From a virus: a stretch of 20,370 nt of DNA. The stretch is from the IMG/VR virus record IMGVR_UViG_3300024346_000659, positions 1 through 20,370 of that record. One strand, written 5' to 3'. A program made the position numbers and the translations under genes. Of the stretch, positions 9,964-10,153 are shown piece by piece. The notes below the pieces were generated by a model that saw only the letters and a program-made list of their open reading frames with translations, was not told where the DNA came from and did not search any database. Position 1 is the first letter of the stretch. Each line of letters opens with the position of its first letter.

Positions 9964-10044
9964 ATGGCAGAAAATTACATTTACGCAGTCGCAATACTAT
10001 TACCAATGGTGTACATATTAGGTATGTACTTTACAACAAAGTAG
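9964..10044 (+). CDS. 26-residue single-span membrane peptide
   Basis: ATG at 9964 behind the leader 'AAACTAACTTTAATC'. The product is essentially one membrane helix, YIYAVAILLPMVYILGMYF, with a short MAEN start and a TTK end. Its TAG at 10042-10044 lies inside the acceptor stem of the tRNA gene. Too short for a family match; the hydrophobic composition and A/C-rich leader are the support. It might also be a translated leader of the tRNA transcript. Confidence 0.45.
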   Translation: MAENYIYAVAILLPMVYILGMYFTTK

Positions 10045-10132
10045 GGTGGTGGAACTGGCAGACACGCCTCCTTGTCTCGGAGGTAGAGATAACAGAAATG
10101 CCTCTATGAACGTTCGAATCGTTCCCCTACTG
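10040..10132 (+). tRNA. Class II tRNA, anticodon GUC (Asp) on a Leu-like body
   Basis: A full cloverleaf can be drawn. The acceptor stem 10040-10046/10125-10131 is seven perfect pairs. T8 G9 precede a D arm with stem GTG/CAC and loop GAACTGGCAGA (G18 G19 kept). The anticodon stem CCTCC/GGAGG holds the loop TTGTCTC with U33 and anticodon GTC at 10074-10076. A 24-base variable region forms a stem TAGAG/CTCTA (10084-10088/10102-10106). The T arm GAACG/CGTTC has loop TTCGAAT. A15-U48 gives a normal Levitt pair. The discriminator is G (10132) and CCA is not encoded (CTA follows). The D arm and long variable arm are those of tRNA-Leu, but the anticodon reads Asp codons and G73, G10 and C38 are also aspartate identity bases. 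Position 37 is an unusual pyrimidine (U). Confidence 0.82.
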
Positions 10133-10153
10133 CTAAACATAAAAACTAAACAG

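Follow-up and report, generated by a model that had tools for sequence, protein, structure and literature searches.

The main long-armed tRNAs known are tRNA-Leu, tRNA-Ser, bacterial tRNA-Tyr and tRNA-Sec, and among the synthetases that serve them LeuRS requires A73. Bacterial AspRS relies mainly on the GUC anticodon, C38 and G73, with contributions from G10 and G2-C71, and G1-C72 is strictly conserved in bacterial tRNA-Asp (PMC9976931). The corresponding bacterial Ser set includes a class II arm, G73, G2-C71, R4-Y69, C72 and C11-G24 (PMC9976931). Allo-tRNAs, which occur with many anticodons, and selC* tRNA-Cys have 12-bp acceptor domains in an 8/4 or 9/3 arrangement, or other stems of the tRNA-Sec kind (PMC7609411). 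Our search of the literature, whose coverage was partial and whose negative outcome is weak, found no description of a long-armed tRNA family with an aspartate anticodon. Here we analyze such a tRNA gene in a 20,370-base virus record (IMGVR_UViG_3300024346_000659, positions 1-20,370; hereafter the window, meaning this entire stretch of DNA), together with its relatives in phages and bacteria.

Results

The window encodes a class II tRNA with a GUC anticodon

ARAGORN independently called one tRNA in the window, at 10040-10133 on the + strand, with the anticodon gtc. The initial annotation ended this gene at 10132, which is indeed G73; the gene as called runs on to an encoded C74 (10133), the only part of the CCA that is encoded. 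The complete class II cloverleaf that had been described, with a Leu-style D arm and a 24-nt variable arm, was confirmed by our reading of the sequence, which also bore out GUC, U37, C38, G10 and G73. The 5' side of the acceptor stem (AGTAGGG, containing A1 and G2; 10040-10046) pairs 7/7 with CCCTACT, which together with G73 and C74 occupies 10125-10133. U8 and G9 lead into the Leu-type D arm (GTGGAACTGGCAGACAC; 10049-10065), which is near-identical to that of host tRNA-Leu(TAA). In the anticodon arm (CCTCC-TTGTCTC-GGAGG; 10067-10083) the stem pairs 5/5 and the loop presents U33, the anticodon G34-U35-C36 (10074-10076), U37 (10077) and C38 (10078). The variable arm (TAGAG..CTCTA; 10084-10107) contains an inner hairpin capped by GAAA. 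Relatives show such hairpins more clearly, with GNRA caps that were read by eye. Next comes the T arm (GAACG-TTCGAAT-CGTTC; 10108-10124), likewise on the + strand. A 26-aa hydrophobic mini-ORF (9964-10044, + strand) has its TAG stop within the 5' acceptor strand of the tRNA, an overlap that recurs in one relative (L013).

In single-sequence folding, the energy of the window tRNA alone was not significant (z -1.09), and the Rfam tRNA model (RF00005) gave no window match at E<=10, short of its gathering threshold. The case for the window tRNA thus rests on comparison.

Phage relatives display strong covariation

Relatives of the window phage were gathered via terminase and upstream-gene searches. 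The tRNA was present at the same site in ~10 of their contigs, in eight distinct versions. Within this clade the anticodon stems compensate (CCTCC/GGAGG, CCCTC/GAGGG and CCCAC/GTGGG), as do the T stem and the acceptor; positions 33-37 (UGUCU) and G73 are invariant, and position 38 is C or G. A wider search pattern, consisting of a Leu-type D arm and a YTGTCT loop, matched 29 viral stretches and 6 bacterial contigs, and the acceptor and T stems were complete (12/12 pairs) in every match with enough sequence. In an alignment of 18 diverse members, the cloverleaf was paired in 99.3% of cells, double changes were found in 16/24 pairs, and the covariation score was 0.662, compared to 0.177 for shuffled and 0.11-0.18 for slid controls. 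The outer stem of the variable arm and the T stem are among the helices that covary, and pair 2-71 did not vary in this alignment.

Since our tally of family members (see below) required GTC in each, the constancy of the anticodon rests on an anticodon-blind test, in which viral contigs were searched with the type B variable-arm motif alone. This search returned 14 stretches, 2 of which were chance matches; the remaining 12 were true members, and all of them carried GUC-U37-C38 (loop YTGTCTC). Three further members, with a different D stem, were found in tRNA-rich phages, and one member resides in the 636-kb huge phage LR756504.1. DNA similarity searches of annotated phages and plasmids matched only this huge-phage copy, which is unannotated. 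In most of the small phages examined the GUC class II tRNA was the sole tRNA detected; huge and tRNA-rich phages carry it alongside ordinary tRNAs, and in these no ordinary tRNA-Asp was detected. The tRNA arrays of L005, L008 and L009 contain other class II tRNAs with odd anticodons, namely CCA as read from the loop TTCCAAC and GAU as read from the loop CTGATAC.

Because the stems covary strongly, comparison identifies the long-armed GUC tRNA as a real, selected RNA, and not a decayed tRNA-Leu. A decayed, mis-sequenced or pseudogene tRNA-Leu would explain the Leu-like D arm, and one cellular copy (L147), which lacks the T arm, is probably a pseudogene. As an account of the family this explanation is hardly credible: covariation, with compensatory changes and an invariant loop, in 93 distinct members from independent assemblies ruled it out. 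Homologues with Leu anticodons, or a different reading in other assemblies, were sought and none were found, all relatives recovered having GUC. What had been treated as a single oddity is instead part of a broad phage and cellular family of 93 distinct relatives, 31 of them from phages.

Copies in Sphingobacteriaceae chromosomes

The 6 bacterial contigs matching the wider pattern belong to Pedobacter, Anseongella and an unclassified Bacteroidota MAG. A stricter pattern matched 90 of 251 Sphingobacteriaceae genomes, mostly as two tandem copies ~185 bp apart, and the reversed control gave 0 in every genome listed. The regular order in which the matching genomes are listed suggests that one genus, which we infer to be Pedobacter, carries the tRNA pair almost universally. 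In overlapping phylum-wide samples of 395 and 247 genomes the matches fit Sphingobacteriaceae only, apart from one (L196) that was judged by eye to be a chance match. Among 12 Sphingobacteriaceae genomes missed by the stricter pattern, 5 have copies with TTGTCCC or TTGTCGC loops at the same locus; such variant copies have a longer D loop and, in one case, the loop CGGTCAC.

Cellular copies of type A have a variable arm of ~40 nt with a GNRA-capped hairpin, and those of type B an arm of 72-77 nt, whose fold is conserved with compensatory pairs in an alignment of members. The anticodon arm is nearly invariant between these paralogues. The Rfam tRNA model gives some type A copies 32-36 bits but recovers neither the window tRNA nor type B copies, and ARAGORN misses the long-armed copies. 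By eye, the flanks of the cellular copies show a promoter-like site (TTTG/TAnnTTTG), a leader with boxA-like GTTCTTTAACA, and a hairpin resembling a terminator, and the copies would represent a chromosomal stable-RNA operon. In one Pedobacter genome (L118:4754-5600 and L125) there are five tandem copies, ~370-400 bp apart, with promoter- and terminator-like flanks. A trailer, TAATTTAGGTTTATAATTGGTTAGT, is conserved between the last tRNA copy and the terminator in L138, L136, L180, L183 and L185, and is common to genomes of differing D-loop type. In 7 of 8 regions an Lrp/AsnC-type gene adjoins the copies in divergent orientation. An obligate Lrp/AsnC partner was nevertheless rejected: of 12 further genomes, 7 have the regulator but yielded no tRNA copy beside it, and some copies are elsewhere. 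Likewise rejected was an anti-Shine-Dalgarno mimic, CACCTCCTT, which is found in the Pedobacter copies and is not retained in phage members. By sequence comparison, then, the tRNA represents a conserved and largely unannotated family in many phages and Pedobacter-type chromosomes.

Conservation across 93 members

Our tally comprised 93 distinct members, 31 from phages and 62 from cells (Sphingobacteriaceae chromosomes). G2-C71, G73 and C74 were present in 93/93, U33 in 92/93 (one copy has G33) and C38 in 89/93. C74 is also encoded in the ordinary host tRNAs inspected, and so is no mark of the family. Position 37 was U in 79 members, C in 8, G in 5 and A in 1, and hence a pyrimidine in 87/93; in the ordinary tRNAs of one Sphingobacteriaceae genome it was a purine in 30/30 distinct sequences (A in 26, G in 4). 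Pair 1-72 was U-A in 85 members and A-U in 8, the window having A1-U72. Variable arms ranged from 19 to 83 nt and were themselves structured. The 31 phage members share an invariant YTGTCT loop; C38 is replaced by G or A in 4 of them, and 7 have A10 (A10-U25) in place of G10.

Identity elements and mischarging

The initial annotation proposed that a Leu tRNA had been converted to Asp identity. Of the features of tRNA-Leu, the large variable arm and the Leu-type D arm are present, while A73 and a Leu anticodon are not. The body likely descends from tRNA-Leu(UAA), since its D arm is that of the host tRNA-Leu(UAA). With respect to tRNA-Asp, the window gene has GUC, G73, C38, G10 and G2-C71; it has A1-U72 rather than G1-C72, and a 24-nt arm rather than the short variable loop of class I. 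The proposal is therefore partly supported, by the Leu(UAA)-like D arm and by GUC, G73 and G2-C71, which the family retains; pair 1-72, which is A-U or U-A, does not fit it. Similarly, C38 and G10 qualify as Asp identity bases in the window, but not family-wide, given the phage exceptions noted above. The combination U1-A72, G2-C71 and G73 also fits the tRNA-Gln acceptor set.

It had further been suggested that the tRNA is charged with serine. SerRS might recognize the long arm and G73, or LeuRS the Leu body with its Leu-type D arm, resulting in programmed Ser or Leu at Asp codons. The class II arm, G73, G2-C71 and R4-Y69 do occur in the bacterial Ser set (PMC9976931). However, C72 and C11-G24 of that set are absent, the family having U72 or A72 and most members U11-A24; the serine proposal is less well supported than conversion to Asp identity. 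In addition, the A73 required by LeuRS is never present, an arm of such variable length suits no fixed SerRS geometry, neither SerRS nor LeuRS needs strict conservation of GUC, and an Asp-to-Ser change across the proteome would be harmful. We consider mischarging by either enzyme very unlikely.

Gene neighborhoods and other candidate roles

In a 108-kb phage (L108:4942-9377), the GUC tRNA lies in a cluster with two Mom-family genes, a glutamine-synthetase-like gene, a CTP-transferase-like gene and a lone class II (D/K/N) aaRS catalytic core. This region and L006 hinted that the GUC tRNA serves as donor for Mom-type DNA modification, a candidate that was rejected: Mom is found in 2 of 29 tRNA-bearing records and is absent from 27 (many of them fragments), including two 28.7-kb contigs, so that a general link is not supported. 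Five window-phage relatives (L022:2500-3236, L023:552-1339, L034:8705-9391, L043:749-1503 and L047:764-1458) have a Mom-family gene followed by an odd tRNA-Gly(TCC) that bears A8, U73 and C74, lies on the opposite strand and overlaps the Mom 3' end. The Mom product is glycinamide-like, which makes a Gly-tRNA donor a testable thought. An intron in the variable arm of the GUC tRNA was also rejected, since Rfam matched no intron family in the tRNA genes and the arm has a conserved fold.

Discussion

The reading that we prefer, and to which we assign about an even chance, is that a tRNA-Leu-derived body was selected for recognition by AspRS, producing a specialized Asp-tRNA that probably serves mainly for something other than routine GAY decoding. 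Host AspRS would charge the long-armed GUC tRNA with aspartate, because the tRNA has the principal features that bacterial AspRS recognizes, namely GUC, C38 (in most members) and G73. Less securely, the tRNA would not be optimized to decode GAY codons routinely, given that almost all members have a pyrimidine at position 37 and that the host's own tRNA-Asp suffices to read GAC as well as GAU; an ordinary tRNA-Asp(GUC) was present in the one Sphingobacteriaceae genome inspected. Phages may carry the gene to supply, replace or sequester this same Asp-tRNA function.

Conserved GUC, U33 and G73 would also be expected of an ordinary, if odd, elongator tRNA-Asp, charged by AspRS and decoding GAC/GAU in cells or when late phage genes are expressed. 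Its occurrence alongside ordinary tRNAs in the huge and tRNA-rich phages is in keeping with this role, and since it is the only Asp-anticodon tRNA detected in tRNA-rich phages, decoding is possible there. Arguing against it are the pyrimidine at position 37, the copy with G33, the ability of host tRNA-Asp(GUC) to read both Asp codons, and the status of this tRNA as the only one detected in most small phages. Moreover, a codon count placed GAC at 29% of the Asp codons in the window; given this lack of enrichment, codon-usage compensation was rejected. An elongator function is, in our estimation, possible but improbable.

Conservation of the loop past the anticodon, relaxed decoding features (position 37, and 33 once), an elaborate and conserved variable arm, and an anticodon arm nearly invariant between cellular paralogues could alternatively reflect a decoy or regulator that delivers no amino acid and uses its YUGUCUC loop to bind AspRS, an anticodon nuclease or another RNA. 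Because G73, C74 and the intactness of the acceptor and T stems point to an RNA that is processed, receives its CCA and is charged, we view a decoy as unlikely.

Aside from these alternatives, a specialized Asp-tRNA might, as a tentative possibility, be dedicated to extra-ribosomal work: charged by AspRS and relaxed in decoding, it would use its large, structured variable arm to dock an aspartate-using transferase or other partner. If so, aspartate would become one of the few amino acids that have a tRNA dedicated to non-translational use. The long-armed GUC tRNA would separate the needs of AspRS from those of the ribosome, and would thereby offer a clean system for asking what role a tRNA plays when decoding is relaxed. 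The family is mostly invisible to ARAGORN and Rfam, even though the pair seems to be present in almost all genomes of one cultured genus.

Compared to bacterial tRNA-Leu(UAA), the family has the long variable arm, the cloverleaf and, nearly letter for letter, the D arm (TGGTGGAACTGGYAGACACG) in common, and differs in having GUC, Y37, G73 instead of A73, an arm of up to 83 nt, and U1-A72 or A1-U72 with G2-C71. It shares G34-U35-C36, G73, G2-C71, mostly C38 and mostly G10 with bacterial tRNA-Asp(GUC), but whereas the latter has a 5-nt variable loop, A37 and G1-C72, the family has a 19-83 nt arm, U37 and no G1-C72, as well as a different D arm. Like tRNA-Sec it belongs to class II, has G73 and bears an unusually long variable arm; tRNA-Sec, in contrast, has a UCA anticodon and an 8-bp acceptor stem, compared to GUC and 7 bp. 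Allo-tRNAs and selC* tRNA-Cys are, like the family, natural bacterial class II tRNAs, many of them from metagenomes, and in allo-tRNAs too the anticodon is at odds with the body (PMC7609411). Unlike those tRNAs, all aligned members of the family, with no instance of 8/4, 9/3 or 8/5, build their 12-bp acceptor domain from acceptor and T stems of the canonical 7/5 lengths, and the family has one anticodon.
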